A stretch of 29,273 nucleotides of DNA from positions 1 through 29,273 of the IMG/VR virus record IMGVR_UViG_3300009034_001039, one strand, 5' to 3'. The notes under the pieces are model-generated. The model saw only the letters and a list, made by a program, of their open reading frames with translations. It did not search any database and was not told where the DNA came from. Of the stretch, positions 2,143 through 18,735 are shown one piece after another; the stretch's first letter is position 1; each line of letters opens with the position of its first letter. The position numbers and the translations under genes were made by a program. The DNA comes from a virus.

Positions 2143-2366
2143 TTTAATAATCCCAGAAAAGATGGAAGCTCTTTGACACCTAACAGAACTAATAGCAACG
2201 CGATAGCAATGCCCATCAATCTCACAATCCACCTCTGCTGCGTTTCGACTTTAGTAACCCGATCTGTCAATCCACTACCTGGATTGCTGTTCCCATAAAG
2301 GCACTCATGGATCGCTTTCACCATCTCATAAATCCTCTCTACCTTCTCCTCCGATTCTTTACTCAT
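2139..2366 (-). CDS. XhlA-like holin or holin-accessory membrane protein
   Basis: The 75-residue protein has a charged helical N-terminus (SKESEEKVERIYEMVKAI), the segment LTDRVTKVETQQRW (33-46) and one C-terminal membrane span (about 47-66, IVRLMGIAIALLLVLLGV). This is the layout of haemolysin XhlA family proteins, which work with a holin or endolysin in phage lysis. The ATG at 2366 is chosen over an earlier in-frame start because a strong GGAGGAGGG ribosome binding site (2373-2381) precedes it by six bases and the earlier part encodes only the overlap with the methyltransferase gene. It overlaps that gene by eight bases and couples to the endolysin through ATGA. Confidence 0.75.
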   Translation of the reverse strand: MSKESEEKVERIYEMVKAIHECLYGNSNPGSGLTDRVTKVETQQRWIVRLMGIAIALLLVLLGVKELPSFLGLLK

Positions 2367-2928
2367 CAAAATCCCTCCTCCTACAAACCCAGAGCATTGG
2401 AGTGAACGTCTGCTGCATGTAAGGCTGGAGACCATAACGTTCGCAGGTGTTTGCTATATCCTGATAGCAGATTTCACATTGACCAGTTCCGTCAAACTCC
2501 TCATCAAACACCCGATGATCGTGCCAGTAGTCATGTGCCATGATTATATCGCCGGGCTTCAAATGTGGAGCGAAGGTCTTGAACTCCGTTTGTTTATCCC
2601 CATTATCACACAAAAGGAGCGACATTCCCGAATGTTGAAGCCCGCCAATAATCTCCCTTCGCAAGTCAGAGAAAACATCCCCCGCTGCTAGGGCAACTCC
2701 AAATGTATTAAGCAACTCTACGAGCCGATAATCCTTCGGCAACTTCACATCGCAACTGTAAACCGTGCAATTAGTGACATAACTATAGAGACCCAAGAAT
2801 ACCGTCAATCCTCCGGCTCCAGTTCCAAGCTCAATAATCCTTGCAGGACGTGTTCGCTTGAGTAATCTATTAAAGGCATCAATGATCCCTGGCTGTTGTT
2901 GCATTGATAATCCCATCACTTTGATCAT
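2359..2928 (-). CDS. Class I SAM methyltransferase (CmcI-like)
   Basis: A 189-residue Rossmann-fold methyltransferase. Motif I is IIELGTGAGG (31-40), an acidic residue ends strand 2 (YSCDVK, D60), and LLCDNGDKQTEF followed by LKPGDIIMAHDYWHD resembles the cephalosporin hydroxylase/CmcI group of sugar and small-molecule O-methyltransferases. It is the third methyltransferase of the glycan cassette and last gene before lysis. Its ATG overlaps the preceding glycosyltransferase stop as ATGA, and its end overlaps the XhlA-like gene by eight bases. The likely substrate is a sugar of the glycan made by the neighbouring transferases; this is inferred from context only. Confidence 0.75.
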   Translation of the reverse strand: MIKVMGLSMQQQPGIIDAFNRLLKRTRPARIIELGTGAGGLTVFLGLYSYVTNCTVYSCDVKLPKDYRLVELLNTFGVALAAGDVFSDLRREIIGGLQHSGMSLLLCDNGDKQTEFKTFAPHLKPGDIIMAHDYWHDHRVFDEEFDGTGQCEICYQDIANTCERYGLQPYMQQTFTPMLWVCRRRDFDE

Positions 2929-3863
2929 ATTAAGCTCTCCACTTTCTGGAGCACATACTTGGCGCAGTGTTGCACTAAATGATGTTCCCGAATGTGATTG
3001 AGTCCATTGGTAGTGAGATCCCGCAAATAATCCTCCTGCGAATCTGAGAGAATGTGATCCAGCTTTGCCAGCATATCTGCCTCGCTCGTAAAGAAAATAG
3101 CATTGACACCATTAGTAAAGTCATCCCTCACCTCAATCGTGCTCTGGTGATTGTAAGTGAAAAGACAAGTGCCTTGTCCTGGAATTTCATAGAGCCGATT
3201 GAGATTGAATAGTCCATTCGCGCTGGGAGGTAAGCTAAAACTGACCTTCGCTGCTCTCAATATCTTCACATATTCTGCATAATTCTGTGTATACAGTTGC
3301 GGATAGATATTGTCGTATCGCTCCTGCAATGCCTCAATGTAAGGGACACGACCAGGCCAGCAAGTCCCTGCGAAAAATGTATCAAATCCTTTGACAGGAA
3401 CACGCTCAGGCATCCGCTCCTCCAACTCAGAATAGGAAATAGGATACCCGTCTCGCTCGTGGCGTTTTTCGCAGTAGAATTTGGCAACCACATTCAGATC
3501 CTCAAAATTCCACACAGACTCGATACTGAGCCCGTCCTGAGAGACGATAGCGCACCCTGTATGCCCCATAAAAGAGAGGATGTGGGCATAGACACCATGA
3601 AGATAAGGAAACGTCCATATATCGCCAATAAGCACCAAATCGAAGAAGCCTTGCTCCAGTTTGGATGTAATATCTCCCACAGCCAGCAATCCATCCATTG
3701 GCAGGTGCAAATAATTCCACCAGTGACCTTTACAAAAGAGATTATGCTTGAAAGGAAAGGCAAACAAAGTCTTACCCCATTCGTGACCTGTTCTCATTAG
3801 ACCTACCAGAATTCGATCACTCACAGATTGGCTGTGCGTGGATAATAGATACAGGATATTCAT
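2925..3863 (-). CDS. CgeB-like glycosyltransferase, paralogue B
   Basis: A 312-residue protein resembling the CgeB / Glyco_trans_1_2 group of GT-B glycosyltransferases. The C-terminal half carries the nucleotide-sugar site region (RLYEIPGQGTC, 223-233; FTNGVNAIFF then a DHIL helix) and ends in NHIREHHLVQHCAKY. The N-terminal half (MNILYLLSTHSQSVSDRILVGL) is a Rossmann-like start. It is a diverged paralogue of the protein at 5183-6118: length is almost equal and both share MNILYL, SELEER-PE-VP, DTFFAG and HHLVQH-AKY. It starts two bases after the upstream methyltransferase ends. Target (virion or host surface glycan) is not determinable. Confidence 0.75.
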   Translation of the reverse strand: MNILYLLSTHSQSVSDRILVGLMRTGHEWGKTLFAFPFKHNLFCKGHWWNYLHLPMDGLLAVGDITSKLEQGFFDLVLIGDIWTFPYLHGVYAHILSFMGHTGCAIVSQDGLSIESVWNFEDLNVVAKFYCEKRHERDGYPISYSELEERMPERVPVKGFDTFFAGTCWPGRVPYIEALQERYDNIYPQLYTQNYAEYVKILRAAKVSFSLPPSANGLFNLNRLYEIPGQGTCLFTYNHQSTIEVRDDFTNGVNAIFFTSEADMLAKLDHILSDSQEDYLRDLTTNGLNHIREHHLVQHCAKYVLQKVESLI

Positions 3864-3864
3864 A

Positions 3865-4446
3865 TTACATACACAAGTAGGTTAGATGTATTTGCCCATC
3901 TGCAGAAACGTCCAGCCGCTCGACCGAAACGGTGTCAAAATAGCGAGCCAATAGATCGTGCAAATCTGACTGGCTAAAATGATGTAGATGAGTCATATGA
4001 TCGCACGTATATCCATCAGGGACAGAGCCGACAAATATGCCACCGCTTTCGAGGATCGAGCTAATCTTCCTGAGGACTGGATCGAGACGCTGTATATGCT
4101 CCAGACCTTCCCAGAACGCAACCACATCAAAGCGACTGGTGAAGCTCTGTTCTTCAAAGGCCGCACGTATGCAAGTCGCTCTCAAGCCCCAGCGTATAAG
4201 TCCCTGTTTAACATACTCAATACACACGTCTGCTATATCAATCAAAGTGGCGGAGCGGATAGAACCATCGTTCAACAAGGTTAGGGAAAAGCGACCATTG
4301 CCACAGCCGATCTCCAGAAGGTCACCGCAATAGCAACCTCTGTATTGCTTTTCTGGAGGGGCCAAAACGAGATTATCGGCGACGTTACACTTTTCTGTCA
4401 TGTGCTTATTATATATCTCTCGCCAATTGTGGGTATTCATGTTCAT
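3865..4446 (-). CDS. Class I SAM methyltransferase
   Basis: A 193-residue methyltransferase with motif I DLLEIGCGNG (42-51), an aspartate ending strand 2 (LIDIAD, D70), and RFDVVAFWEGLEHI (105-118) at the strand 4 position, where SAM-dependent methyltransferases of the Methyltransf_11/25 group keep their active-site loop. The start at 4446 is coupled to the upstream methyltransferase by an ATGA overlap; an alternative ATG lies two codons later. Substrate unknown; it probably modifies a sugar within the cassette. Confidence 0.75.
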   Translation of the reverse strand: MNMNTHNWREIYNKHMTEKCNVADNLVLAPPEKQYRGCYCGDLLEIGCGNGRFSLTLLNDGSIRSATLIDIADVCIEYVKQGLIRWGLRATCIRAAFEEQSFTSRFDVVAFWEGLEHIQRLDPVLRKISSILESGGIFVGSVPDGYTCDHMTHLHHFSQSDLHDLLARYFDTVSVERLDVSADGQIHLTYLCM

Positions 4447-5183
4447 AATGTCATCCTTTCAAAAAAGAGCGTATTGAAGGAACACAGCATAAGCGGATTT
4501 GGGAAGATATAATAGTCCGATGGGAGCGGACATTCCACAAAACCGAAATGGCCAAAAAGCTCAATCCAAAACTCTCTCGGATGTTCATTTGGATGTTCCC
4601 ACACATCCGGGAGACTGAAGGCAGGATAGAGCCATCTTTCTTTGCCTATCAAAGACAGACGCACACGATGAGGTAAGGGATTGACAGATGTGAAGTAATT
4701 ATGCAAGACACAACCATCAATCGGATCGAGGGATCGAGTCATTGGCATTCTGAGAAAGATAAACTCAGACGACACGCGAGTCACTTCTCTAGCAGCCACC
4801 ATGATACCTTCATAATCGTGTAGATGTTCAAAGACATCAAAGCATATAACCATATCAAAGGTGGAATCTCCGAAAGGGATTCCAGACGATATGTCTGCTT
4901 CCAGCAGATACTCTTTTACTTCTTCTGACGAATGATGAAGAGGAAAGTGAGCGAAATCGAGACCATATGCTTTCTTCCCCAAAGCGCGAAGAGCATGTGT
5001 ATATGCTCCAACAGAGCAGCCACAGTCCAGGACTGTATTGAACTCTCTGAGATCTACCAGCATCTCCAATGCGACTTTCATGCTTTGGATGTCATAAGTA
5101 GGAATCCCATCGCTATTAACGTGCCTGCAATGGTCTACAAAATAACTGGCATCGTAGCCTGCCCTTCTCTGTTCATAATTCAT
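4443..5183 (-). CDS. Class I SAM methyltransferase
   Basis: A 246-residue enzyme with motif I VLDCGCSVGA (51-60), LDFAHF after strand 2 (acidic D76), and FDMVICFDVFEHL (109-121), the typical Methyltransf_11 motif following PFGDSTFD. The C-terminal part (residues 140-246) is rich in aromatic and proline residues and may form the acceptor-binding cap. It starts with a TGATG overlap on the stop of the CgeB-like gene and ends in an ATGA overlap with the next methyltransferase, so three genes are translated as a coupled block. Sugar O- or C-methylation is the likely role by context. Confidence 0.75.
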   Translation of the reverse strand: MNYEQRRAGYDASYFVDHCRHVNSDGIPTYDIQSMKVALEMLVDLREFNTVLDCGCSVGAYTHALRALGKKAYGLDFAHFPLHHSSEEVKEYLLEADISSGIPFGDSTFDMVICFDVFEHLHDYEGIMVAAREVTRVSSEFIFLRMPMTRSLDPIDGCVLHNYFTSVNPLPHRVRLSLIGKERWLYPAFSLPDVWEHPNEHPREFWIELFGHFGFVECPLPSDYYIFPNPLMLCSFNTLFFERMTL

Positions 5184-6118
5184 CAGAGCAAAGCCTCCAC
5201 AATGTCTATGAGATACTTAGCAGTATGCTGCACTAAGTGGTGATCACGAATGTGATCCAGAGCAGCCCTAGCTGTCGCCGCCAGCTTGGCCTCATCTGCC
5301 AGCAGAGCCTCCAGCTTGGCAATCATATCATCCTCATCCGCAAAGAAAAGGACATCCTCTCCATCGGTGAAGTTTTGGCGAACCTTCACTGAGGGATTGT
5401 AGTTCCAATTCATTATGGAGCAGCCCTGCGCTGCGCCTTCCCACATCTTGTCACTGTTCTTGAACTCGCCCGGCAAACCAAATGTCACCTTAGCTCCCCG
5501 AATTGCTGTTACATACTCTGACCAGACTGTGGAGTAATATTCATCATGAATATTGGCATAGCCAGCGTCCTGGAGAGCTTTAATATATTTCTCTCTTTCT
5601 GGATGCTTCGCCCCTGCAAAGAATGTGTCATAATGCTTCTCAGGCACACTCTCTGGCACACGCTCCTCCAATTCTGACCATCCAATAGCAAACGATCCAA
5701 TATATTCCTTCTCCCGCTTCCGCTCTGAATAGAATTCAGCAATCCTATTGACTGTGAGGAAATGCCAGTCATGATCGATCAATTGGTCGCTCTGACTTAT
5801 CACGATACAAGGCGTGTCGCCCAAGCTCTGCAAGATCAACTCATATCCCATTTGCAATTCGGGATATGTCCAGATATTGGCTATGAGAGCCACATCGAAA
5901 AACCCATAATTGAGTCTGGCTATGACATCTCTCATATCTAGCAAGCCATCAAGTGCCAATCCCATATAAGCGTGGTGATCTTGGCTTCTATAGAGATTAG
6001 GCTTGTATGGATATGTAAACAACTGCTCTCCAAGCTCATATCCAATTCTTGACAGACCGACAATCAGTCTATCATTGACAGATTCCACATTTGGTGATGA
6101 CAGGTAAAGGATATTCAT
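5183..6118 (-). CDS. CgeB-like glycosyltransferase, paralogue A
   Basis: This 311-residue GT-B type protein is a paralogue of the protein at 2925-3863. Shared blocks include MNILYL at the N-terminus, SELEERVPESVP near residue 150, DTFFAG, FTDGEDVLFFADEDDM (about 250) and DHIRDHHLVQHTAKY at the end. The frame is open further upstream to 6160, but the ATG at 6118 is chosen because AGGAGGGAG precedes it and because its N-terminus then lines up with the paralogue. The glycine-rich EGAAQGCSIMNW replaces the YEIPGQGTC of the other copy, suggesting a different donor or acceptor. It couples to the next methyltransferase by a one-base TGATG overlap. Confidence 0.75.
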   Translation of the reverse strand: MNILYLSSPNVESVNDRLIVGLSRIGYELGEQLFTYPYKPNLYRSQDHHAYMGLALDGLLDMRDVIARLNYGFFDVALIANIWTYPELQMGYELILQSLGDTPCIVISQSDQLIDHDWHFLTVNRIAEFYSERKREKEYIGSFAIGWSELEERVPESVPEKHYDTFFAGAKHPEREKYIKALQDAGYANIHDEYYSTVWSEYVTAIRGAKVTFGLPGEFKNSDKMWEGAAQGCSIMNWNYNPSVKVRQNFTDGEDVLFFADEDDMIAKLEALLADEAKLAATARAALDHIRDHHLVQHTAKYLIDIVEALL

Positions 6119-6129
6119 AATGCTCCCTC

Positions 6130-7386
6130 CTATTTGTACTCTCCTACCGTTCCTGACCATGAGCTAATCTCAGACATTTCCGCCTTCATGTGGATATACA
6201 TTTTCCAGATTGTGTCCTGAGTCAGATCCTTTGTGCAATATGTTACCCACGCGGTCTGGTCTCCACAAACTTGGAAATAATGAGAGAAGTCACGATCCAG
6301 GATTTTGATTCCAAACTTCCCTGGATTATTCCATAATTCTGTGCCTGGATAAATGATTAGTGGATAGATTGAGTGCTCATGCAGTTTCATAGTTCTGGCA
6401 AAATCCAGAGTCTCCTCTATCGTTCCCCATGACTCTCCTGGAAAACCGACCATAAAATATCCCCTAACAATGTGTCCAGCATCTTTAGCTCTTCTAATCC
6501 CCGCCTTGATCCGCTCTGGCGGCTCGCCCTTATTCATGTGATCAGCATCCAGAATCATAGACGATCCACTTTCCACTCCGATGGCAAGGTGGCGACATCC
6601 ACCTTCATATAAAAGCTCCGCAACACCAGGATTTGCTAACGTGTCTCCTCTGACAAAGGCGCGATAGATAATATCATACTCTTTGACCAACTCAGTAAAC
6701 CGAGCCAGCCACGAATACTTCAAAGCAAACAAGTCGTCCTCGAATCTGAAAGCTCTCCTCCCAAGTGCTCGATGAAATGCAATCTCCTTCACTACATTCT
6801 CAGGAGACCGGAATCGCGGCTTATTGCCTTTCCCCATAATTTGGGAGTTGCAGAAGACACAGGAATATGGACATCCTCTGCTTGACTGGAGGCTGATGGA
6901 TGGCATCCCACCAACTATGCGATCATAACTTCCCAGATTGACCAGAGAAAAATCAGGGAAAGGCAGAGCATCCAGATTAGCGAAAGGTAGTCCTTCCACA
7001 ATGCGCCTAGTAGCAATGCCCCTCAGAATCCACTCTGTTGGCATCTCTCCCTCGCCAGTCACTACAAACTCAAAGTCTTTAGCGACTTCTCTTGGTAACG
7101 CTGTCGCGTGAGGGCCGCCAGCAATCATTCTGGCATAGGGATTCACAGAGCGGCAACGCTCCACAATCTTCTTTGTGCGATGGTATGATGTGGAATATGT
7201 TGTGAATCCATACCAGTCAGCGACAGGGATTTTCCACTCAGACTCCTCCTGCCCGGATAAATCCAAAAACGTAGCCCCATATCCTACCGAGCGGAGATAG
7301 CTTGTGATCGATAAAGCCCCTAACTGTGGCTGCAACCTATCTTGCTTCAGTTCAGGCACCGGAGTCTGAATCATGCACAACTGCAA
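6130..7386 (-). CDS. B12-binding-domain radical SAM enzyme
   Basis: A 418-residue radical SAM protein of the class B (cobalamin-binding) type. The N-terminal 130 residues have the B12-binding-like fold markers (LGALSITSYLRSVGY, IAGGPHATALP at 89-98, VVTGEGE), followed by the 4Fe-4S motif CPYSCVFC (Cys172, Cys176, Cys179), RFEDDLF, and the downstream VESG and GYFMVGFPGES segments of the barrel. Family members methylate unreactive carbons or cyclise substrates. The start is the TTG at 7386, seven bases after GAGGAGGAG; the ATG four codons later is too far from it. The gene overlaps the upstream GT2 gene by 35 bases. A C-methylation of a sugar or lipid in this cassette is plausible but unproven. 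Confidence 0.85.
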   Translation of the reverse strand: MQLCMIQTPVPELKQDRLQPQLGALSITSYLRSVGYGATFLDLSGQEESEWKIPVADWYGFTTYSTSYHRTKKIVERCRSVNPYARMIAGGPHATALPREVAKDFEFVVTGEGEMPTEWILRGIATRRIVEGLPFANLDALPFPDFSLVNLGSYDRIVGGMPSISLQSSRGCPYSCVFCNSQIMGKGNKPRFRSPENVVKEIAFHRALGRRAFRFEDDLFALKYSWLARFTELVKEYDIIYRAFVRGDTLANPGVAELLYEGGCRHLAIGVESGSSMILDADHMNKGEPPERIKAGIRRAKDAGHIVRGYFMVGFPGESWGTIEETLDFARTMKLHEHSIYPLIIYPGTELWNNPGKFGIKILDRDFSHYFQVCGDQTAWVTYCTKDLTQDTIWKMYIHMKAEMSEISSWSGTVGEYK

Positions 7387-8299
7387 CTTCTATCTCCTCC
7401 TCATATTGATGATCCATGAAAATCTCATCCTCTAGCTCCTTGCCATATTTCTTCAGATACATCTCCATCGCATCATCATATCCGAGCATATATGTGAATT
7501 GTGTTCCATTCATGACTCCAGGAGGATCACCAATGTATGGGAAGGAGCAGGCGTCGTCTTTGTAGCCCATGACATGGCGAATCGCCCAGGCTGCTATCGC
7601 CATATCACCAGCTTGACGAACATGCTCCATAGGCTCTCCCCACGCGCCCATCGTGATATTTCTGATGTGTTTCTCCACCTGTGCCTCAAACCCACTAATC
7701 CAGCCATAATGGTATCGAAACGCGTGTGGTAGGAAAAGATAATCCTCAGAGGTGACTTCCGCCAAATCCAGATGTGGCCCATGATGGAAATATGGTCTTA
7801 ACTCCATCGAGATGATAGGCACGTCTCCAATCACTGGCAGCTTAAACCACTCATTGAGAGTACCTTCACCGCCGCCATAGAGTCTAACGTGCTCTTCATC
7901 CAGCCAGAATTCTATGAATAGGCAATAGAAGACCTTGCGCTCTGGGAAGGTTCTCACAGCATTGCAGAGCATTTCTATGTCTTTCTTGTCGTAGATCATG
8001 TCTCCGCAATGCAACAGCAAATAGTCTCCAGTAACTTGACTCAGGCCAGAGTTCCGCTGAGTAGATTCGTCCCATGAGCCATCGGGCAGCGCATACTTTC
8101 CAGTCATATACCTTATCCTTTTCGGATACTTCTGGATGTAGGATTCGATGATCTCTGGAGTGCGATCTGTTGACGGCCCTGTCGGACTGCCATCGACAAT
8201 CACAGCCTCATCTATATACTCCAGAACCCATCTGAGTGATTGTTCGATAAAAGCTTCTTCATTATAAACTGGCATTAACATTGAAATTTTAGCTGACAT
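7352..8299 (-). CDS. GT2-family glycosyltransferase
   Basis: A 315-residue GT-A glycosyltransferase. The start MSAKISMLMPVYNEEAFIEQSL (residues 1-22) is the standard GT2 opening; EAVIVDGSPTGPSTDRTPEI (31-50) carries the nucleotide-binding acidic residue, and LLLHCGDMIYD (94-104) occupies the DXD position, with a single aspartate D100 in the HCGD form rather than a classical DXD. Start ATG 8299 follows GGAGGG. The C-terminus is acidic (EEEIEVAVVHDSDSG) and overlaps the radical SAM gene. It transfers a sugar to an unknown acceptor, part of the nine-gene glycan cassette. Confidence 0.85.
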   Translation of the reverse strand: MSAKISMLMPVYNEEAFIEQSLRWVLEYIDEAVIVDGSPTGPSTDRTPEIIESYIQKYPKRIRYMTGKYALPDGSWDESTQRNSGLSQVTGDYLLLHCGDMIYDKKDIEMLCNAVRTFPERKVFYCLFIEFWLDEEHVRLYGGGEGTLNEWFKLPVIGDVPIISMELRPYFHHGPHLDLAEVTSEDYLFLPHAFRYHYGWISGFEAQVEKHIRNITMGAWGEPMEHVRQAGDMAIAAWAIRHVMGYKDDACSFPYIGDPPGVMNGTQFTYMLGYDDAMEMYLKKYGKELEDEIFMDHQYEEEIEVAVVHDSDSGA

Positions 8300-8326
8300 C
8301 TTGTCCCTCCATTTATGATTGGCGGA

Positions 8327-9391
8327 TTAACAACTGGCTGCCTTTTCCAACTCAGCCACCTTCCCGCCGTCCTGACTAATAATTATACCATACTCGGCTA
8401 GAAGTTTCAATACCTCCCCTGTCATGCCTCGCCACGTCAGATTAGCCAGAACGTAGGCAGAAGCTACCTGTCCTTTCCGCTGCGCTTCCATTCTCTGCCC
8501 ATTGGCATATCGCATTATTGACGCCAAACTATGCACGTCAGGAACGCGCCAATAGCCTGCGGTCTTTGGTAAGCATCTGGATACTGGAGCATACTCCTCT
8601 GACATATTGATCCACCATCCATGCTCGTCTGTAAAGAACTCAGAAGGAGACGAGCAACGAGCAACCATCCCCGCCATCCCTGTTGCCATCCCCTCAAACG
8701 GAATGAGACCAAATCTCTCAGACAGATGCGGAGACACAATTATATGGTGGTCTCGATAATACTCAATCGGTGACTTGGCAACTCTAGTAGTGAATGTGAT
8801 CTGAGGATGCCTACCATACTCCCTCTCCAGTTCAGCATACATTGTAGAATTACCTAAAAAGCAAGCGATTGTCAAATGCACAGCGTCTGTCTTTCGGAAA
8901 GCGGCTATGAAGGCTTCAGGAACGAGCCAACTCCCTTTCCGAAATTGTGCGTTGCCAAGATGCAAGAATCTGAGAGTGCCTGTCCAGTCCCGTTGAATGT
9001 AGTGATATTGTGTGTCATCCACACCAAACGGGATTATATGAATTGGCACATCAATGGGAGCTTCTTTGAAAGCAGTAGTCGCGTGTTGTGAAGGACATAT
9101 TAGGAAATCGCATTCATTGATATTATCAATCACATCCTGTCGCCCTTCTTTCAAAATGCTGCGCGCCTCAGATAAAGCGATCCCAACCTTGCATTTCACT
9201 CTTCGTAGTCCAGACCAATCCCAATGTTTTGGATCACACCACCACATCTCGATAATATCATCGTCTGGCGGTGGCTGAAAGGGATTCAGAGGAATATCAC
9301 AACCAATATGCCCAAATGCGCGCCTTAGATGATTCCATACAATCGTCCATGAGCACCGCTGTAAACCGTTAATCCGCAACCATATTTTCAT
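8327..9391 (-). CDS. GT4-family glycosyltransferase
   Basis: A 354-residue GT-B retaining glycosyltransferase. The C-terminal domain has LRFLHLGNAQFRKG (140-153) at the domain start and the EX7E-type motif SERFGLIPFEGMATG with E225 and E233, which holds the donor nucleotide-sugar in GT4 enzymes. The N-terminal domain includes a DFLICPSQHA segment (95-104) typical before the interdomain linker. It overlaps the end of the GT9 gene by 23 bases; its own ribosome binding site is weak (GAGAGGG about 12 bases upstream), so it is probably coupled to GT9 translation. Acceptor unknown. Confidence 0.85.
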   Translation of the reverse strand: MKIWLRINGLQRCSWTIVWNHLRRAFGHIGCDIPLNPFQPPPDDDIIEMWWCDPKHWDWSGLRRVKCKVGIALSEARSILKEGRQDVIDNINECDFLICPSQHATTAFKEAPIDVPIHIIPFGVDDTQYHYIQRDWTGTLRFLHLGNAQFRKGSWLVPEAFIAAFRKTDAVHLTIACFLGNSTMYAELEREYGRHPQITFTTRVAKSPIEYYRDHHIIVSPHLSERFGLIPFEGMATGMAGMVARCSSPSEFFTDEHGWWINMSEEYAPVSRCLPKTAGYWRVPDVHSLASIMRYANGQRMEAQRKGQVASAYVLANLTWRGMTGEVLKLLAEYGIIISQDGGKVAELEKAASC

Positions 9392-11204
9392 AAGCGTTTA
9401 ACACCCTCTCTGGTGATATGCTTTTCATGCAGATTGGTTCGACCATCTCTCTTGGGCAATGTTCAAACCAATCATCTGTTCTGAATAAACAGCATTTACA
9501 ATTATATGAGTCTACACAAACATGCCCCGGATACTGCAATAACCGCGAAGCCGTCGATCCCCGAATTACCATCACATTCTTGCATCCCAAAGCATAAGCC
9601 ATGTGCATAATCCCGCCTTCGGTAACAATTATGCTATGGGCGTTCTTCAATACAATCGCTAATTGCTTTAGATCGGTCTTCCCTCTGAGGTCAATAGCTC
9701 CGGGAGTGAATGGATCAAAGCCTGTGCCAACTTGGAGGAATTTCGGATACCCGTCCTCGCTTGCGCTCTCTACCAAGCGATTCCAATGAGGCCAGCATTT
9801 CGTCTGTACTAAGCCTTTATGGATTGTGTCAACGCCATTAGCAAAGACGATGTAATCATTACTAGGCAAAAGAGCATTGATCGGATCGCCTTCATCGAGA
9901 TCAAAAAACAGACCAGTATTTATGGTATCATAAGGCAGACCTAACATCTTGTCGGTCAACTGAATGTGGTGCATCCTAAGAGATGATAGCTGCCCTTGAT
10001 GGAGAGGAAACTGATCATAGTAGTATTGCCAGGGGGCAAACCATTGAAATCTCTTCCCATACCACTTCGCCACAGCAAACTTAATATCCGCCAGAGCCAT
10101 GAAGCGATCCTTATATTCTGCCAGCGTATCCTCCCACTTGACATAGCCGACTTGTATAATATCATCAATGTATGGATTCCCCTCAAATAGCTCCGCATGA
10201 TGTCTTATAATGACTGTGACTTTCTCGTCCCATTTTTCCTTGATCTTATATGCCTGATCTGAGAGAGTAAGAGTACCACCCAGACCGTCAAGCCGCAGGA
10301 GACCAATTCCGTTGCTCTTTCTCCGCTTCTTTCGTGGCGGTCGGTCTGGCAATAAGATGGATTCTACCCTATCATAAACATCCGTCACTTTAATCCTACG
10401 CAGACATGGACGCCATGAGCAAGGTTTTGGCCAACATGGTTGCTTTGAACAGGGAACTTTGATCCAGTGCGCATTTACATACATGGAAGCCAGAAGGAGC
10501 GGATCGGTTGTACCAAATATCGCCAGAAAGGGCGTTCCAACGCCACCAGCAATGTGTAGCCCTGCGCTGTCCATAGTGATTATCAATTTCATGCGTTCGA
10601 CCAGACTGGTCAGACGATCCAGCGGATAACCCACCACTTGGGATACATTTGGAGAATTGATAGACAACTTCTTTTCGCCATCAAAGCAAAAGACAGCACA
10701 CCCAGAATTGGCCAACATCTTGACCAGTTTAGCCATGCCGTTCCATGTGCGATTCTTCTCCGCCGCTCGCCAAAAGACACCAATCGGGATCTTTTCACCA
10801 GCGGCATTTCTGACAAACGCATCTGCCCATCGTTTTAACTGAGTAGGTATCCAGAGAGTTTGCGGTCTTCCATCCCATTCTATGCCCTCCAAGTCGTGCG
10901 CTTGTAAAGCGTCTGATAGCTGATTACAAAACAGTTCATGCTTCACAGTTCCAGAATCATACTTGACTAAATCCATGTTCACAAGAATGTCAGACTCAGG
11001 GAGATCTTGATCGCTGTGGTAGATATTATCAATCGCTGGATGTTTCAATAAGGCAGGATATTGGCATCGAACATTTATACAGGCTCGCGGATGGGCAAGC
11101 CGCAAGAGTTCAATAGACCGGAGCATAATCGCTACATCACCAATATGCTCCAGATGCCGCTCTATTGTGATAACTTCACTCGTCGTATTCGTACTCGTAG
11201 ACAT
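9369..11204 (-). CDS. Double-domain GT9 (heptosyltransferase-like) glycosyltransferase
   Basis: The 611-residue protein is two GT9-type units in one chain. Unit 1 (about 1-288) has the LEHIGDVAIMLRSIELLR opening, the MDSAGLHIAGGVGTPFLAIFG motif (211-231) that binds the nucleotide-sugar, and a cysteine array C252, C257, C262, C267 with even four-residue spacing. A very basic linker (residues 291-296, RKKRRK) leads to unit 2 (about 298-611), which repeats the order: GIGLLRLDGLGG start, VTEGGIMHMAYALG, and a second Cys-rich tail (CVDSYNCKCCLF, then CPRE and ICMKSI). Single GT9 enzymes are about 320-350 residues, so this is a tandem fusion or internal duplication. It starts at ATG 11204 behind AGGGAG and overlaps the tail hub gene by 29 bases. 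Confidence 0.8.
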   Translation of the reverse strand: MSTSTNTTSEVITIERHLEHIGDVAIMLRSIELLRLAHPRACINVRCQYPALLKHPAIDNIYHSDQDLPESDILVNMDLVKYDSGTVKHELFCNQLSDALQAHDLEGIEWDGRPQTLWIPTQLKRWADAFVRNAAGEKIPIGVFWRAAEKNRTWNGMAKLVKMLANSGCAVFCFDGEKKLSINSPNVSQVVGYPLDRLTSLVERMKLIITMDSAGLHIAGGVGTPFLAIFGTTDPLLLASMYVNAHWIKVPCSKQPCWPKPCSWRPCLRRIKVTDVYDRVESILLPDRPPRKKRRKSNGIGLLRLDGLGGTLTLSDQAYKIKEKWDEKVTVIIRHHAELFEGNPYIDDIIQVGYVKWEDTLAEYKDRFMALADIKFAVAKWYGKRFQWFAPWQYYYDQFPLHQGQLSSLRMHHIQLTDKMLGLPYDTINTGLFFDLDEGDPINALLPSNDYIVFANGVDTIHKGLVQTKCWPHWNRLVESASEDGYPKFLQVGTGFDPFTPGAIDLRGKTDLKQLAIVLKNAHSIIVTEGGIMHMAYALGCKNVMVIRGSTASRLLQYPGHVCVDSYNCKCCLFRTDDWFEHCPREMVEPICMKSISPERVLNAYENMVAD

Positions 11205-14200
11205 TCTCCCTATACCTTCCAGGAGCCACCAATGCCACCATCTTAATATAGAAATCCGATAGAACCATCTCCATCTGGCGCAAGCGCGCTATTGAATAAT
11301 CGAAAATCGTTCTTGCAGTTTGCTTGATGCTTAACGTATTGCCTAAGTCTAACTGCGGCTGCCATTTGGTCTCCAGCGTGACAAGTGTGTGGCGATGATG
11401 CCAAAAGTCAAAGGCTCGAAAGCCAAGACTCTCAGCCTGGTATATATCGTCATCTGTGAGAAAGTTGTTGTCAATCCGCATCGTGCGCCTGCCATATTTC
11501 TGCTCTGACGATCCGATCCAAGGCCCCTTATTCATCTTCCAATCAAAGACCAATTCCCTATCACCATATGGGACTTCGATATAATTATAGATGTCATCCC
11601 AATTTGGCTCTTTCTGAGCATACTTCAGATTAGCCCCCTCTGCCGGCGCGAAGTTCGCCAAGACTTCATGGATCTCCCAGATTCTATCATCCTCAGAATG
11701 CGTTGCTGCTGTGGATTCCCAAGCTCCACGCGTACAACCTGTGAAGTCATTGCCGCTAATCCCTGTATGCTTAATCACTTCCGTGCCGATCTGAATCATA
11801 CCATCGCTCTCAAAATCGTCTATATTCGTCCCATCAGACGGGATTGTTACTACAGAAGCGTTAATATTAGATGCCAAGACAGAAGTAGTAGAAAGCCGCT
11901 CACGCCAAAAGACTACCCCTTCTTTGGAGACGCCTAACTCAAAATTAGCCAGCTTCGCCAATTCTGAAAGCACATCCCAGACTTTTCTGCCATTCAGATT
12001 CGCTTCCCGGACTATAGGCACAAACGTCTTTGCATAATGGCCGAGGGAGTATCCATACTTATCATCATAGCGCACAATCTTGTCAGTGGCGATATAAAAG
12101 ATCGCCTGATCGCTGCTTCTGTAGACCATAACAGCAGAATGTCCTGAGACTTCATCTCTCAGAAAGTGAGTATCCTCTGTTACTGGTCGCAAAGAGAGTG
12201 CTCCCATGTCTTCAATCTCATTATCGCCAATCTTATAAATATGTCCAGTCCCTTCATCTTGATCGCCATCCATAGCAACTCCAGTTCCCCTAATCATCCA
12301 GACATGCCCATCATAGATAACTCCGCCGCAGAATCGCCCATGCCAGGCATCGTATTTCTTGTCTCCATATCCATCATGCTGGATTAGATCCGTTTCTGTG
12401 ATGAAGTCTTTATCAATGGAGCAGAACCAGCAATGCCAGTTGACGCTAATCCTCAGAATGTTCATATAAATCTTCCCGTCAGTGGAATTATAGATACAAT
12501 CCACAGGGATCAATAAATCTACCGAATTCTTGATGAATCCATGATCAACCCATGTGCCGGTCGATTTTGTGAGAGTTTCATATCTTATCTCATATCCGCC
12601 GCCGCCAACGTCTTTGGTATAGAAAAATTCTATCGTTGTGCCAGTGTCCACAAAATCCGACCTACCGTTGGTACTTAGTGAACGAGTGTACTTTGTAGGC
12701 GATCCACCAGTGAGGGCGATCTTTGCTATGCCCCGATTGCCGCCAGAATCTCTGAATAGATACCAAACAACTGAATTAGTATCATCAACTGTGAAGTTTG
12801 GCCACTGACCACCTTCTTGATCTGTCTCATCGCCATAGTTGCGATAGTCTGCGCCGCCAGTAACATCTCCAGTAAGCAGAAATGATATTGCCTCTCCATC
12901 GAATTTGAATATGCTGCGATATGTCCCTGAATCTGTCTTGCCACTAATCCCATAAACGTTGCCACTGGCGTCCAGACCGAGTTTATATATGAAATTATCC
13001 GGCCCCAGATTGGCGAGCAAATCGTACTTCTCACCATCCCATTTGATTAGATATTTTCCAACGCCAATATAGATATTCCCGGAACTATCCACAGCCAAAG
13101 CATAGGCTTTCATTCCCGGAATCATCGTAAGGCTGCCACCTTGATATGCGCTGGTTACTTTGCCGATATTGATGGGGATTGTGCGCCCCAGATAATCTGC
13201 CAAGACCGCCTCTTCAACAAGAGTTGTAGCGAATCCCTCCGCTTCCAGTAATCGTTTAGCAAGTGAGTAGTATGTTATTGTGCGGAAACAACTTTTATAT
13301 GTAGAGGTTAGTGTTGTCAGATCAGTAGGAGCGGCAAGTAGTTCTAAGACGCCAGCATCATAATCAATAAAGCCAGTAGTTTTCTTATCTACGTTCGGAA
13401 CTCCCAACAGCGTCCCTTCTTCAACAATATCAATCTGACCATCGCTTGACGTGGCATTTTCAACACTGCCTTCTGAGAGAGGATATGCCATAAATTGGAA
13501 ATATCGTCCGTCGGTTGCGCTCCCATCCATAAGCGTCAAGGCGACTTCTGTTTCATTGTCATGCGCTGCTGGCGTTGTACCGAACCTGCCCCTCATGCAG
13601 CCTTTCAACGTGCTATTTTCATAATAACTGTAATAAATGATTTCATCATCTAACTCGACAAATCCAAATGGTGGAAAAGCACCAGGATAGTTACCAGTAG
13701 GGTCTCCACTCCTGGTGTTCTTAACGGGAATATTTGGCTCTTGTGTTCCATCCCAAGCGGCGGGAATAGGAGCGGAAGTATAGCAAAATGTGTCTCCACC
13801 ATAAAGCCGCTCATTAGTCCATTGCTCCCCGAAATCTTCAATCTTGGCATCCCTCAGCTTTCTGGATACGCATTGGAGATCGATAGTCGCTACATCATCT
13901 TTGAGTGTTGTGTCAATATCTACCAGAACACCATAAAAGACAGTAACTAAGATTTCCTTTTCATCTCCTTCTGAAGTCCTGTAACCGCACTTGATAACCA
14001 CCGGGACTTTATAACCATCCTGAGATCTGCCAAGAGTGCCCACAAAGAAATTGCTGGCGTTATCTATATCAAATCTCGCATCCTCATTTTTCAAAGATAT
14101 TTGACAGTTATTTGCCGTGAAAACATTGGGATGTAGAGCTTGCTCCACTTGCCACAGGATTCTATCGAAATTGCTGACCCAATTGGTGATCTCATGCTCT

Positions 14201-15561
14201 CCATCGCCGCTATCCAGCATATATGCCCGTCTCACCGGCAACCAGTGTGGCTTCCGTACTTCTGCCATAAAGGCTGCCATATCAGCAGGAATTGTAAGAT
14301 AAGCAGTAACGCTAGTTTGAGTCGCCGCTGTGCCAGCCAGAAGAAATGTGCCTGTAAGATCAGCAGTTACAGCGGTCGTTGTGTTTGATGATCCATCGAA
14401 TCCAATGGAAATCTCAAAGCTACTGAGGGCATCATCATCCGGTGGCCCACCGCCCAAGTCAGGCTCTCCAGCGACGGTAAACAGATAAGGAGTGCCACCA
14501 ATTTTCACAAGATCGCACCCCTTAACGTTATTCAAATAATTAGGAGAGCCAGCCCCATAAATCCTACCAACAAAGCTAGCAGAAGCAGGCGTGGTAACAT
14601 CGAAGGCAGACACATTATCTGTGTCGTGACAGGCGACTGTGGCATATTCTTTCCCTTGAATTGTAATAACAGCAACACGTCGAGGAGCGTCCAGATAATA
14701 AGGAGCACCGGAGCCTACAAAGGTTTTTACAAGGGTAGGACTAGAAGGAGTGGTTATATCAATAATAGTAAACGAGCTATCGTTAATACTACAGACGAAA
14801 GCATAGAAATTGCTCCCAATTTGTTTGAGTTTTACATCTCGGGCATGATCAAGGTAATTAGGACTACCGGCACCGCTTATAACTCCTACGTGAATAATAT
14901 TATCATAATCTGATATATCAAAGATCGTCAATGCGTCATCATACTCGGCAGTAAGGATAGCATACTCTGTACCGTCTATCACAATGCACTCAACACTGGT
15001 TGCGTAGCCAAGATAGTTGGGAGAACCAAAACCACTTATATCTCCCTTCTCAGTAAAGGTAGCGTTATCCACATCAAACAAAACTAACCTGTGTTTGCCA
15101 CGTACAGCAACCGCAGCGATTTTCGTACCGCCAATATCAATCACTGATACGTCACGCGCGCCAGTTAAATCTGTCCAGTCTTGGAAGTAAGTTTTGTGAG
15201 AAGCACTGGTAGGATCATCTACGTCAAACATCGTGACAGCACGGCTGTCTTCAGAGGCTATAATGCAGTACAGTTTGTTATCGCTGGCCTCATATATATC
15301 TAAGCCGTGAGCAGCGCCCAAATAGTAAGGTGAGTGATTACCGCCATATGTACTCCAACCAACTTCATACAGAATATTCGAGGGATCAGTAACTTTGAAA
15401 ATACTAAAGTAACTAAGAGTACCTGTTGTGAAGCCTTCAGTGGTGACAAAGGCCCAGTAATCGCTCCCTATTTGCAGAACTTTGACACACTTTGGCCCGT
15501 CGAGATAATAGGGAGAGCCTTTACTTTGTACTGTGTCCTTGTGGATAAATATGAAAGACAA
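11176..15561 (-). CDS. Tail hub / tip protein with two beta-propeller regions
   Basis: At 1461 residues this is the largest protein here. Residues 1-390 form an LVIVD-type propeller: about seven repeats of roughly 50 residues carrying a GSPNYL-type turn followed by an aliphatic strand. Residues 425-800 look like a baseplate hub: LDSGDGEHEITNWVSNFDRILWQVEQAL, then VFYGVLVDIDTTLKDDVATIDLQCVSRKLRD. A second propeller-like stretch (about 810-1180, AVDSSGNIYIG, LDASGNVYGIS, IFYIATDKIVRYD) is inserted, after which the hub resumes (GRKVWDVLSELAKLANFELGV, about 1190). Start is TTG 15561 with TAGGAGA just before it, overlapping the preceding stop region. Location downstream of tape measure and fibre genes supports a tip and receptor-binding role. 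Confidence 0.75.
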   Translation of the reverse strand: MSFIFIHKDTVQSKGSPYYLDGPKCVKVLQIGSDYWAFVTTEGFTTGTLSYFSIFKVTDPSNILYEVGWSTYGGNHSPYYLGAAHGLDIYEASDNKLYCIIASEDSRAVTMFDVDDPTSASHKTYFQDWTDLTGARDVSVIDIGGTKIAAVAVRGKHRLVLFDVDNATFTEKGDISGFGSPNYLGYATSVECIVIDGTEYAILTAEYDDALTIFDISDYDNIIHVGVISGAGSPNYLDHARDVKLKQIGSNFYAFVCSINDSSFTIIDITTPSSPTLVKTFVGSGAPYYLDAPRRVAVITIQGKEYATVACHDTDNVSAFDVTTPASASFVGRIYGAGSPNYLNNVKGCDLVKIGGTPYLFTVAGEPDLGGGPPDDDALSSFEISIGFDGSSNTTTAVTADLTGTFLLAGTAATQTSVTAYLTIPADMAAFMAEVRKPHWLPVRRAYMLDSGDGEHEITNWVSNFDRILWQVEQALHPNVFTANNCQISLKNEDARFDIDNASNFFVGTLGRSQDGYKVPVVIKCGYRTSEGDEKEILVTVFYGVLVDIDTTLKDDVATIDLQCVSRKLRDAKIEDFGEQWTNERLYGGDTFCYTSAPIPAAWDGTQEPNIPVKNTRSGDPTGNYPGAFPPFGFVELDDEIIYYSYYENSTLKGCMRGRFGTTPAAHDNETEVALTLMDGSATDGRYFQFMAYPLSEGSVENATSSDGQIDIVEEGTLLGVPNVDKKTTGFIDYDAGVLELLAAPTDLTTLTSTYKSCFRTITYYSLAKRLLEAEGFATTLVEEAVLADYLGRTIPINIGKVTSAYQGGSLTMIPGMKAYALAVDSSGNIYIGVGKYLIKWDGEKYDLLANLGPDNFIYKLGLDASGNVYGISGKTDSGTYRSIFKFDGEAISFLLTGDVTGGADYRNYGDETDQEGGQWPNFTVDDTNSVVWYLFRDSGGNRGIAKIALTGGSPTKYTRSLSTNGRSDFVDTGTTIEFFYTKDVGGGGYEIRYETLTKSTGTWVDHGFIKNSVDLLIPVDCIYNSTDGKIYMNILRISVNWHCWFCSIDKDFITETDLIQHDGYGDKKYDAWHGRFCGGVIYDGHVWMIRGTGVAMDGDQDEGTGHIYKIGDNEIEDMGALSLRPVTEDTHFLRDEVSGHSAVMVYRSSDQAIFYIATDKIVRYDDKYGYSLGHYAKTFVPIVREANLNGRKVWDVLSELAKLANFELGVSKEGVVFWRERLSTTSVLASNINASVVTIPSDGTNIDDFESDGMIQIGTEVIKHTGISGNDFTGCTRGAWESTAATHSEDDRIWEIHEVLANFAPAEGANLKYAQKEPNWDDIYNYIEVPYGDRELVFDWKMNKGPWIGSSEQKYGRRTMRIDNNFLTDDDIYQAESLGFRAFDFWHHRHTLVTLETKWQPQLDLGNTLSIKQTARTIFDYSIARLRQMEMVLSDFYIKMVALVAPGRYRENVYEYEYDE

Positions 15562-15569
15562 GATGTCTC

Positions 15570-16358
15570 CTAATCTAAAGTAACATCTAAGTCCTGGTCG
15601 CCAAACTTGGCCGTGTCGCCATTGCCGATCACTTTGGTTTCATCAAGGACACCATAGAATAGGACATTGCCAACAGTAAGAGCGTCAACCAGAGCAAAAC
15701 CAGTTATCGTTCCCCAAGCACCGGTAGCTGTGACAAAGGTAATGATGCCATTGTTGCTCGATGCTCCAGCGGCAGCAGCATTCCAACTATTGTGTAACTT
15801 ACGGGCATAGCTTCCACCAACAGGCTCAGTAATCGTAGACCCCGTATCAGCGTCGCCTATAGCAGCAGTTACTAGAGCAACATAGATATTGGTCGGCACA
15901 GTATATGCGCTATTCTTGAAAACATGATCAAGCAACTTATTGGCGAGGTAGTTACTGACACCGCCAGTGTTAACTGACACAGCAATGCTCTGAGCCACAA
16001 AATAGAGAGTATCTCCTGTGCTCACAGTCTTAGGCACAGTCAATGCTCCATGAGCGAGCATATTGCCCCCACTAATAGCATCCATTATAGCGATATGTGT
16101 TATGTTGCCCCATGAGCCAGTAGGGACAGCGAAATTCACCTGATTGGTATTTCGGATCAATCGGCTGGCTGCGGTATCCCAAACATTACACACAACGCGG
16201 GCATAACTCCCACCGCTTGGCTCTGCTAATCCTGAGCCATCATCTAACGGATCGGCTGTGGAAAGGGCGATGTAAATGTTAGTCGGCTGTACAAATGCGC
16301 CCACTTTCAGAACGTGATCGAGCAGTTCAAGCTCCAAATAATCACTCAGAGATCCCAT
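15570..16358 (-). CDS. Tail fibre-like protein with two tandem homologous domains
   Basis: The 262-residue protein consists of the same domain twice. Residues 1-132 and 134-262 share DYLE-ELLDHVLK / NYLANKLLDHVFK, PTNIYIALSTA / PTNIYVALVTA, EPSGGSYAR / EPVGGSYAR, PTGSWGNITHIAIMDA / ATGAWGTITGFALVDA and GNMLAHGAL / GNVLFYGVL. Similar single domains are found in phage tail fibre or minor tail proteins with no known activity; the compact beta-rich pattern suits a binding module. The ATG at 16358 is preceded by GGAGGAGAC. It lies between a holin-like protein and the tail hub gene. Confidence 0.7.
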   Translation of the reverse strand: MGSLSDYLELELLDHVLKVGAFVQPTNIYIALSTADPLDDGSGLAEPSGGSYARVVCNVWDTAASRLIRNTNQVNFAVPTGSWGNITHIAIMDAISGGNMLAHGALTVPKTVSTGDTLYFVAQSIAVSVNTGGVSNYLANKLLDHVFKNSAYTVPTNIYVALVTAAIGDADTGSTITEPVGGSYARKLHNSWNAAAAGASSNNGIITFVTATGAWGTITGFALVDALTVGNVLFYGVLDETKVIGNGDTAKFGDQDLDVTLD

Positions 16359-16635
16359 CTTGGTCTCCTCCTCTCTTCAATTGGATATAATTCTTGCTCA
16401 CAGAATGTGCTCCAGAGGCCGCCATCGCGATCACAATTCCTCTCACAATAGCACTCCAGAGAGACATCGAATGACTGATCAATGCCTCAATAAGAGACAT
16501 GCTAAGAGCCACCAGAAAACACACCAGCGGAGCGAATCGCTTTTTGTCTATACATGCTGGTGGAAGCCTCATAACCAAGTCGGTGAGATATTTCACCATC
16601 GCTATTCCAACAATAGATTTGCCTTGCTCAATCAT
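16342..16635 (-). CDS. Two-span membrane protein, holin-like
   Basis: A 97-residue protein with two likely membrane helices, about residues 35-52 (FAPLVCFLVALSMSLIEALI region) and 59-77 (LWSAIVRGIVIAMAASGAH), and a charged C-terminus (KNYIQLKRGGDQDGISE). Size and topology suit a class II holin, but no family motif proves it. ATG 16635 follows GGGAGAAAGG. The end overlaps the next gene by 17 bases. A second lysis-type membrane protein lies far downstream at 2139-2366, so this one could be the pore-forming holin or an unrelated small membrane protein. Confidence 0.55.
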   Translation of the reverse strand: MIEQGKSIVGIAMVKYLTDLVMRLPPACIDKKRFAPLVCFLVALSMSLIEALISHSMSLWSAIVRGIVIAMAASGAHSVSKNYIQLKRGGDQDGISE

Positions 16636-16665: not shown

Positions 16666-18300
16666 TCAAGGAGCTTCAGAAATTTGTATAAACCCCTCGG
16701 CTGTCTTGAAAGCGAATGCGGAGAAGTTGATAATAACATTATCCACCTCAGAAGTGTCTGTCTCCAGATTGAGCCGAAATGACATGACATCATATATCTC
16801 AATGTCATTACCACCGCCGGGATTATAGTCAATAGTAAACAATGCCTGGAAAGTTTTATACTGTGGCGATTTGCCGACTATGGTTGCCTCTTCCAGAGTT
16901 TGTGTCTTGCTCGCAGTATCGCCTTCACCCTTGTAATAGCAAAGCAATTGCAGATCGACTGTATCTGAATCAGCCCCGCCTGTGTTATCCACATTGACTT
17001 CAAAGGAAATCCCCATCCTCAAGTCGGATGCAGCATCCCAATTAGGACAAACGCGCACACTGAAATATAAATATTCGCCAGCAGCATCTAGCTGATAACC
17101 ACCTATAGTATTCGCGCCCGGAGCCGTCCATGTAGCTCCGCTCGCTCCCGGAGATGCTTCGAGCATATCTATGTAGTGGCAAAACCACCATTTGCTTGTA
17201 ACACCTTCAAAATCTCCACCCGCTGTCACCTTGAACTGGTCTGTCAATCCCCCTGCTCCATCGCGTGTGGAGAAATACAACTCAGTGCCGCGCTCGGACG
17301 ATCCCCAATTGGCGTCTGCTTTGGCATAAACCCTAGCACCATCATCAAAACTGTTGTCGTCATATCCATCGAAATCTATCGTCCCAAGAATAGCACCTTG
17401 ATCCACCGCCGTAGGTAAAGCTTCAGATCCGTCGGCCTTTCTCAAGGTTAATAACGGCGTTGTTGTTTCCGTGTCATGGTAGGCACTAATATAACTGGTA
17501 GCGTTGGCAGAATCTTTACTTATCTCTAATTGCCCGTCTGGTGAAGTAGTCCCTACACCGAAATCATTTGACGCAGCGAGAGTGGGCGCAGTTATGAGGA
17601 CAAGCCCGTCAGTGGTGTTATCAATCAGTTCGCTGTTGGAAAGGACAACATCCGCCGTTCCAATTGTTGCGCTACCAAGATCAATCCCATAACTAGCAAT
17701 AGTACCAAGCATATCAATGCCATTGGTCAAAGTCCCACCGGCCCCATTGATCTGAATAGCGTTTGGCATTGTGCCGTGATTGGCGATATATAGACCCGAT
17801 CCCTGCATTGTCGTGCCACTGTTTGCGGTGATATAAACAATATCACTCACGTTAGCATTACTTTGAGTCTCAAATCTGGCGACATGAATATCTGTGCCAT
17901 TAGGGGAGGTATCTGATCCCTTGAAAATCGCTTGGAGGGCATAGGCTGGCTTGTCTAAGGCTGTGTAGCCAGCACTTCCAGCGTTTAACACAAATTGACC
18001 ACCAAACCAGCAGCCTGTGGATGGCTGAATATCCGCCGCTCTTGTCAGTTCTACTTTGACACCATGAACCCACGCTCCTTGCTGTTCGGTGATATTATAC
18101 TCAGCTTTGAAGGCTTGCGCTATTTGTGAACTGACAATGACGCTAGCTCCTATGATTGTAACATCCACAACTGACTGAAATGATCGCCACACATATAGAT
18201 TCCGGGCATGGACATCTTTGCCTCTTCCCTGAGACCAAACAGGGAGAGCAAAAGCCAGAAGCAAAGACACAATAAGGGCAAGTGAAAATAGTTTCCTCAT
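16666..18300 (-). CDS. Exported fibre-like protein with N-terminal signal peptide
   Basis: The 544-residue protein begins with a textbook Sec signal peptide: RK at residues 2-3, a hydrophobic core LFSLALIVSLLLAFALPV and a likely cut after VWS (residue 23). The rest is beta-rich; DFGVGTTSPDGQLEISKDS (about 246-265) is the 'GIGTTSP' type element common before C-terminal fibre and intramolecular chaperone domains, and the last 170 residues look like a beta-sandwich. Start ATG 18300 follows TAGGAGA. Position is between two structural genes, so it is expected to be tail-related, yet a cleavable signal peptide is unusual for a virion protein assembled in the cytoplasm. It may instead act at the cell surface. 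Confidence 0.65.
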   Translation of the reverse strand: MRKLFSLALIVSLLLAFALPVWSQGRGKDVHARNLYVWRSFQSVVDVTIIGASVIVSSQIAQAFKAEYNITEQQGAWVHGVKVELTRAADIQPSTGCWFGGQFVLNAGSAGYTALDKPAYALQAIFKGSDTSPNGTDIHVARFETQSNANVSDIVYITANSGTTMQGSGLYIANHGTMPNAIQINGAGGTLTNGIDMLGTIASYGIDLGSATIGTADVVLSNSELIDNTTDGLVLITAPTLAASNDFGVGTTSPDGQLEISKDSANATSYISAYHDTETTTPLLTLRKADGSEALPTAVDQGAILGTIDFDGYDDNSFDDGARVYAKADANWGSSERGTELYFSTRDGAGGLTDQFKVTAGGDFEGVTSKWWFCHYIDMLEASPGASGATWTAPGANTIGGYQLDAAGEYLYFSVRVCPNWDAASDLRMGISFEVNVDNTGGADSDTVDLQLLCYYKGEGDTASKTQTLEEATIVGKSPQYKTFQALFTIDYNPGGGNDIEIYDVMSFRLNLETDTSEVDNVIINFSAFAFKTAEGFIQISEAP

Positions 18301-18309
18301 AACATTCTC

Positions 18310-18735
18310 CTACCTTCCGTGTGCTTGATAGGTGATCTCAATCACAGCAGCGCAAGCCGCCGCTCCTGTTTGGATTGAAATATCACCTACAATCTCAAGT
18401 GCTCTATCCTCGTTCACATAATCCCACTCCGTAGCGTTGAGCTTTCGCGTCTCTGCCTGCACAGCAATATCTTCATAGACGATATGCTTCGCCAAACGCT
18501 GATAGCTCCGGTATATCCGCATATCAGACTTTGTAGAGACCGCCGCTCCATTGGCTGGATTGATATGCGAGACAGTAATGCCTGTGATCTTCATCCCGCG
18601 TGGGATGGCATTACCATCAATATCCTCGGTTATCTCGAAGTTCGTAGCCGCCGCTCCTGGCGTAAATGATCCCGATGTGGGAACTTGCAGAATTGCCGAT
18701 CTTATTTTAGCTCCAATTAACTGTTGTATAGCCAT
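18310..18735 (-). CDS. Small structural protein of unknown function
   Basis: A 141-residue protein, ATG 18735, with AGGAGGG seven bases upstream. It appears to be a single beta-rich domain: alternating hydrophobic segments (ILQVPTSGSF, MKITGITVSHI, DMRIYRSYQRLAKHIVYEDI, ALEIVGDISIQT) without helices, signal peptide or membrane span. It lies between a beta-helix protein and the exported fibre-like protein, so a role in the tail tip or fibre is likely by context. I do not recognise the family. Confidence 0.6.
   Translation of the reverse strand: MAIQQLIGAKIRSAILQVPTSGSFTPGAAATNFEITEDIDGNAIPRGMKITGITVSHINPANGAAVSTKSDMRIYRSYQRLAKHIVYEDIAVQAETRKLNATEWDYVNEDRALEIVGDISIQTGAAACAAVIEITYQAHGR

Follow-up and report, generated by a model that had tools for sequence, protein, structure and literature searches.

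Phage lambda Lom, a 206-aa outer membrane protein, and N15 Cor, a 78-aa lipoprotein, are exported products encoded between tail-tip and tail-fibre genes. The gene described here is similarly placed, and its product passes the same leader rule (given below) as Lom and Cor, but neither of these has a fibre module or a head, whereas our protein has both. T5 Llp is a phage protein that is exported to the periplasm and blocks its receptor from there (PMC9586334). We suggest Llp as an analogue of function only. It is small, lipidated and without fibre domains, whereas our protein is 544 residues long and has no lipobox, and is thus not of the type of Llp and Cor, which are small exclusion lipoproteins with a lipobox Cys. 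Hol44-type holins cooperate with signal-peptide endolysins (PMC8878798). In these systems (fOg44 and the J5a clade) there is a late Sec-leader protein, and our locus has an adjacent holin-like gene of that family, but the fOg44/J5a-clade systems have an endolysin domain and our protein has none. Finally, proteins of uncultivated phages (in contigs L003, L004, L005, L007, L009, L045 and others) share the C-terminal head of our protein, and the 991-aa protein of L003 also shares its GVGTT-type repeat module. Unlike our protein, none of them has a leader, and they carry varied phage adaptors at the N-terminus.

A position in a tail-fibre cluster is not in itself new, because the exported lambda lom and N15 cor are known there. 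The new aspect appears to be that a signal peptide and a phage fibre head are combined in one protein, which was not found elsewhere. No description of a leader-bearing tailed-phage fibre was recognised in the literature searched, and the absence of a precedent in so limited a search is weak evidence.

The window, meaning the whole stretch of 29,273 nucleotides that was analysed, is nearly the entire virus record of 29,274 bases. The gene and its immediate surroundings are as follows.

16666..18300, minus strand: whole fibre-head gene, 544 aa, TGA stop.
18307..18311, minus strand: Shine-Dalgarno AGGAG, 6 nt 5' of the ATG; it overlaps the TAG with which the preceding gene ends.
18232..18300, minus strand: signal-peptide-like leader, residues 1-23 (MRKLFSLALIVSLLLAFALPVWS); predicted cleavage between VWS and QG, alternatively between AFA and LP after residue 18.
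17593..18231, minus strand: residues 24-236, without detectable relative, including a hydrophobic stretch at 43-61.
17197..17592, minus strand: residues 237-368, fibre-type module with GVGTTSPDG at 248-256, matching the L003 fibre repeats.
16669..17196, minus strand: residues 369-544 (domain to about 540), beta-sandwich fibre-head domain common to 16 other phage proteins.
18310..18735, minus strand: neighbouring gene on the 5' side, 141 aa, which shares its frame with the fibre gene; it resembles a virion protein weakly at best (phrog_486, E 0.02).
16342..16635, minus strand: neighbouring gene on the 3' side, holin-like, 97 aa; it matches Phage_holin_5_2 of the Hol44 family with E 5.5e-4, which is under the gathering score, and the holin phrog_1299 with E 7e-5.

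The right half of the window is a minus-strand structural cluster. It contains neck/tail-completion genes, putative tail proteins and a tape-measure protein (PhageMin_Tail, E 1e-23), then an F5/8C lectin-like gene, a beta-helix gene, the 141-aa gene, the fibre-head gene, the holin-like gene, a Gp80-type virion protein and a 1461-aa tail protein. The original prediction placed a fibre-like gene within a structural cluster, and the neighbouring tail genes bear this out. It also gave the correct coordinates for the open reading frame, but omitted the strand, which is minus. Other candidates for virion adhesion are the 1461-aa tail protein, the beta-helix protein (410 aa) and the F5/8C protein (289 aa), a point in favour of the export reading given below. 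The tape-measure and 1461-aa proteins gave only distant tail relatives, and there is therefore no kin phage for a comparison at the level of the locus. The tape-measure protein was not detected in the contigs that carry the head domain, some of which are fragments. One further contig (L002), retrieved through the upstream 141-aa gene, was discarded, since the protein matched there is unrelated, has 1428 aa and is only weakly similar.

The start of the gene is firm. An in-frame TAG four codons 5' of the ATG, which is also the stop of the preceding gene, excludes a longer open reading frame, and the ribosome-binding site fits only the start that includes the leader, none comparable being present at downstream starts within 200 codons. 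Readthrough or recoding of this TAG, which would fuse the 141-aa protein to the fibre, was considered and rejected: TAG ends 6 of the 26 genes in the window as an ordinary stop, so there is no sign of recoding. The same arrangement, in which the preceding gene ends a few codons 5' of a head-domain gene in the same frame, occurs at 18300-18312 of the window and at L007:7890-7905. Readthrough would in both cases fuse a small protein to a fibre, but the likeness is likely to be coincidence.

Residues 1-23 had been described as a classical signal peptide, and this description holds, on the grounds of charge, hydropathy, cleavage sites and the firm start. The n-region is MRK (net +2), the h-region has a mean Kyte-Doolittle hydropathy of 3.05 across 10 residues, and there are two acceptable (-3,-1) sites, AFA (18) and VWS (23). 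The protein contains neither a lipobox nor an LPxTG motif. Judged by sequence features, with a basic n-region, a hydrophobic h-region, small residues at -3 and -1 and no lipobox, this is a textbook Sec/signal-peptidase-I leader. A leader of this type is found in only one of the 26 genes in the window, namely the fibre-head gene. Random N-termini drawn from the composition of the protein's own body matched its hydropathy and charge in 11 of 200,000 trials, which corresponds to about 0.0014 expected over 26 genes.

The leader rule scores n-region charge, hydropathy and (-3,-1) sites, and two 50-kb stretches of E. coli K-12 served to calibrate it. It passed 15 of 20 proteins that we take to be exported, from annotation and general knowledge, and none of 61 others. 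In lambda and N15 the only proteins that pass are Lom, Rz, Rz1, Bor, Cor and N15 gp54, all of them non-virion. Within the window, one other open reading frame of 199 passes, an antisense frame inside the tape-measure gene. It should be added that residues 43-61 form a second, moderately hydrophobic stretch (mean 1.65), which is borderline for a membrane span. It could form a second span, and this counts against the reading of the product as a soluble exported protein.

The family of the C-terminal head was assembled in three ways. A search with the C-terminal third gave six contigs at 53–58% identity, an alignment search added three further contigs, and matching the DNA to a degenerate pattern for the NLETDTSEVD core brought the family to 16 distinct other proteins. 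The heads are about 50–60% identical to that of the window protein in the members measured, and the motifs of the family (the NxETxTSEVD core, WD and FEVNxDN) are all present in it. An AlphaFold model of the head, made with seven relatives, is good (pLDDT 78.9). Foldseek matched it to C-terminal heads of collagen-like viral proteins, proteins of uncultured phages, tail fibres and carbohydrate-binding modules. PDB structures matched in this way, among them Cry toxins and other sandwiches, had query-normalised TM-scores below 0.5 and indicate fold class only. Relatives of the head were found only in contigs of uncultivated phages; head-domain queries gave no match in INPHARED, and the head-domain profile gave none among PDB sequences.

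The head relatives are diverse in their N-termini. They include the 991-aa fibre of L003, a 1134-aa protein in L045, and heads of around 200 aa in L007, L009 and L044, and their genes sit among lectin-like (Laminin_G), tail-fibre and head-decoration genes. These N-termini are phage sequences, polar and quite different from the leader, and that of L005 is an adaptor common to nearby genes. Conservation of the leader in homologues had been put forward as a check. This came out negative, since none of the 14 relatives with a complete N-terminus has a leader (the remaining two of the 16 run off the fetched DNA), and the window protein, which belongs to the family by its C-terminal domain only, is alone in having one. 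However, only the C-terminal third is common to these proteins, and the leaderless relatives therefore point to domain swapping and do not refute the leader.

Residues 374 and 418 of the head (17179-17181 and 17047-17049 of the window) covary. They are Cys-Cys in three members including the window protein, Glu-Glu in eight, and mixed in six. In the window protein C374-C418 is probably a disulphide or paired site, but it is not in itself proof of export, as the same two Cys residues occur in two relatives that have no leader.

The GVGTTSPDG fibre-type element noted in the original prediction is present, and the module that surrounds it (residues 237-368) resembles the repeats of the leaderless L003 fibre (phmmer E 5e-16). 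The N-terminal segment searched alone in viral contigs had no relative, nor did the whole protein in viral contigs, INPHARED phages, plasmids and genome contigs, and none was detected in 84,980 species genomes at the sensitivity of that search. No leader-bearing orthologue was found, and the association of leader with fibre head is a single unreplicated example in one genome. A match to an adnectin in the PDB (E 0.0027) was not accepted as homology, and the full-length AlphaFold model without relatives was poor (pLDDT 37.8) and was not used.

The simplest account is that an export signal has been swapped onto a phage fibre head, in place of the N-terminus that would attach it to the virion. 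This is suggested because the body is of phage origin, and because the N-termini of the complete relatives are assorted and none is a leader. We consider that the protein is probably exported from the cytoplasm and does not serve solely as a part of the virion. The Sec leader would carry a late-made protein across the inner membrane, and signal peptidase I would remove about 23 residues to leave a soluble product, whose beta-sandwich head, of receptor-binding type and likely to be stabilised by the C374-C418 disulphide, would act outside the cytoplasm. That an exported phage-derived head acts in this way on the envelope or the receptor is a reading we adopt tentatively, with nearly as much for it as against it. 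Since the head is of receptor-binding type, the most natural role would be to occupy the receptor that the phage itself uses, or to block it, leading to superinfection exclusion or keeping progeny off infected cells and debris. Given export, such receptor masking is possible but should be held with some reserve. The exclusion proteins described to date are small, and in many cases they are made early or from a prophage; both the 544-aa length and the late cluster count against an exclusion role. The outcome would also depend on the host. A host with one membrane would release the product, which could then be a true decoy. In a two-membrane host a signal peptide alone takes a protein only as far as the periplasm, where the product would stay until lysis.

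If export is true, the same receptor-binding head would exist in phages both as a part of the virion and as a free exported protein, and the location of a gene among tail genes does not prove that it encodes a virion protein. It would also make it possible to ask directly whether phage adhesins serve their own phage in preventing reinfection or in releasing progeny from debris. The wider proposal, that in some tailed phages the receptor-binding head of the fibre is given a Sec leader and exported in free form to block receptors or act as a decoy, so that the adhesin itself would bring about superinfection exclusion, is doubtful as things stand.

The chief rival explanation takes the protein for a normal virion fibre: its unusual hydrophobic N-terminus would play no part in export and would be an attachment helix packed into the tail tip, or else export would be too slow to matter. 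The gene does sit between tail genes, and the head family rides on leaderless and apparently virion-borne proteins, such as the 1134-aa protein of L045 and the adaptor fusions of L005. However, an attachment helix has no need of the n-, h- and c-region features of a leader or of an allowed cleavage site, the N-termini of the relatives are quite different and polar, and under the leader rule not one of the virion proteins of lambda and N15 passes. We regard an ordinary virion fibre as unlikely. An improbable reading is that the protein is exported as a late lysis or envelope-remodelling factor, a partner of the adjacent Hol44-type holin. Its gene lies directly 5' of the holin gene, holins of this type work with signal-peptide-bearing endolysins (PMC8878798), and in L003 the head-domain gene comes after an amidase gene. 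Against this, the protein has no enzymatic domain in Pfam, PHROGs, NCBIfam or PADLOC and no match to a peptidoglycan hydrolase domain in the first three of these, and the endolysin gene is elsewhere (1777-2232) and itself lacks a leader.

The original prediction also raised capture from a host secreted protein, which might act as a moron in lysogens. The leader itself, and the lack of any phage relative for residues 24-236, would fit such an origin. It is nevertheless not supported, because the relatives of the head are found only in phage contigs and not in genome contigs, the middle of the protein matches a phage fibre repeat, and the search of the species genomes was negative. The GC content is moreover uniform across the parts of the gene (0.42–0.49, against 0.465 for the window), and we judge capture to have little probability. 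The sequence comes from a single uncultivated contig, and an assembly chimera or misread start would make the leader and body unrelated. This is very improbable given a continuous open frame with its own ribosome-binding site, an in-frame stop upstream and the same uniformity of GC. Export of a phage fibre head remains our preferred reading.

Several other features of these contigs are worth recording. In L005, three nearby genes (7139-11119) have a near-identical N-terminal adaptor (MKNYRKIPNPITGKMQRVLSDEY twice and MKKFRNVPNPFTGGTQRVLSDEY once) followed by differing C-terminal parts, and by their sequences form a modular fibre array. In L045, a gene for a 156-aa protein with a lipoprotein leader (5973-6443) lies on the same strand, about 240 bases 3' of the 1134-aa fibre-head gene, and its product is possibly a lipoprotein for exclusion, here in a different phage. 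The L039 contig, which has the same fibre-head domain, encodes two short proteins with strong export-type leaders (5553-6059 and 5166-5471).

In the window itself, the 1461-aa tail protein (11176-15561) has weak LVIVD and SBBP beta-propeller-type matches, and its C-terminal stretch is similar to the 'tail tube B' of the Pelagibacter phage Skadi. The Gp80/phrog_240 virion protein (15570-16358) has two matched stretches, indicating a domain present twice in tandem. An M15 endolysin (1777-2232) and a small coiled-coil/TM gene occupy 1777-2435, about 14 kb from the holin-like gene, and the lysis genes are therefore split. At 2359-11204 this phage structural contig has a region of about 9 kb with genes for glycosyltransferases, methyltransferases and radical-SAM/B12 proteins, whose content suggests glycan synthesis or modification of the virion or host surface.
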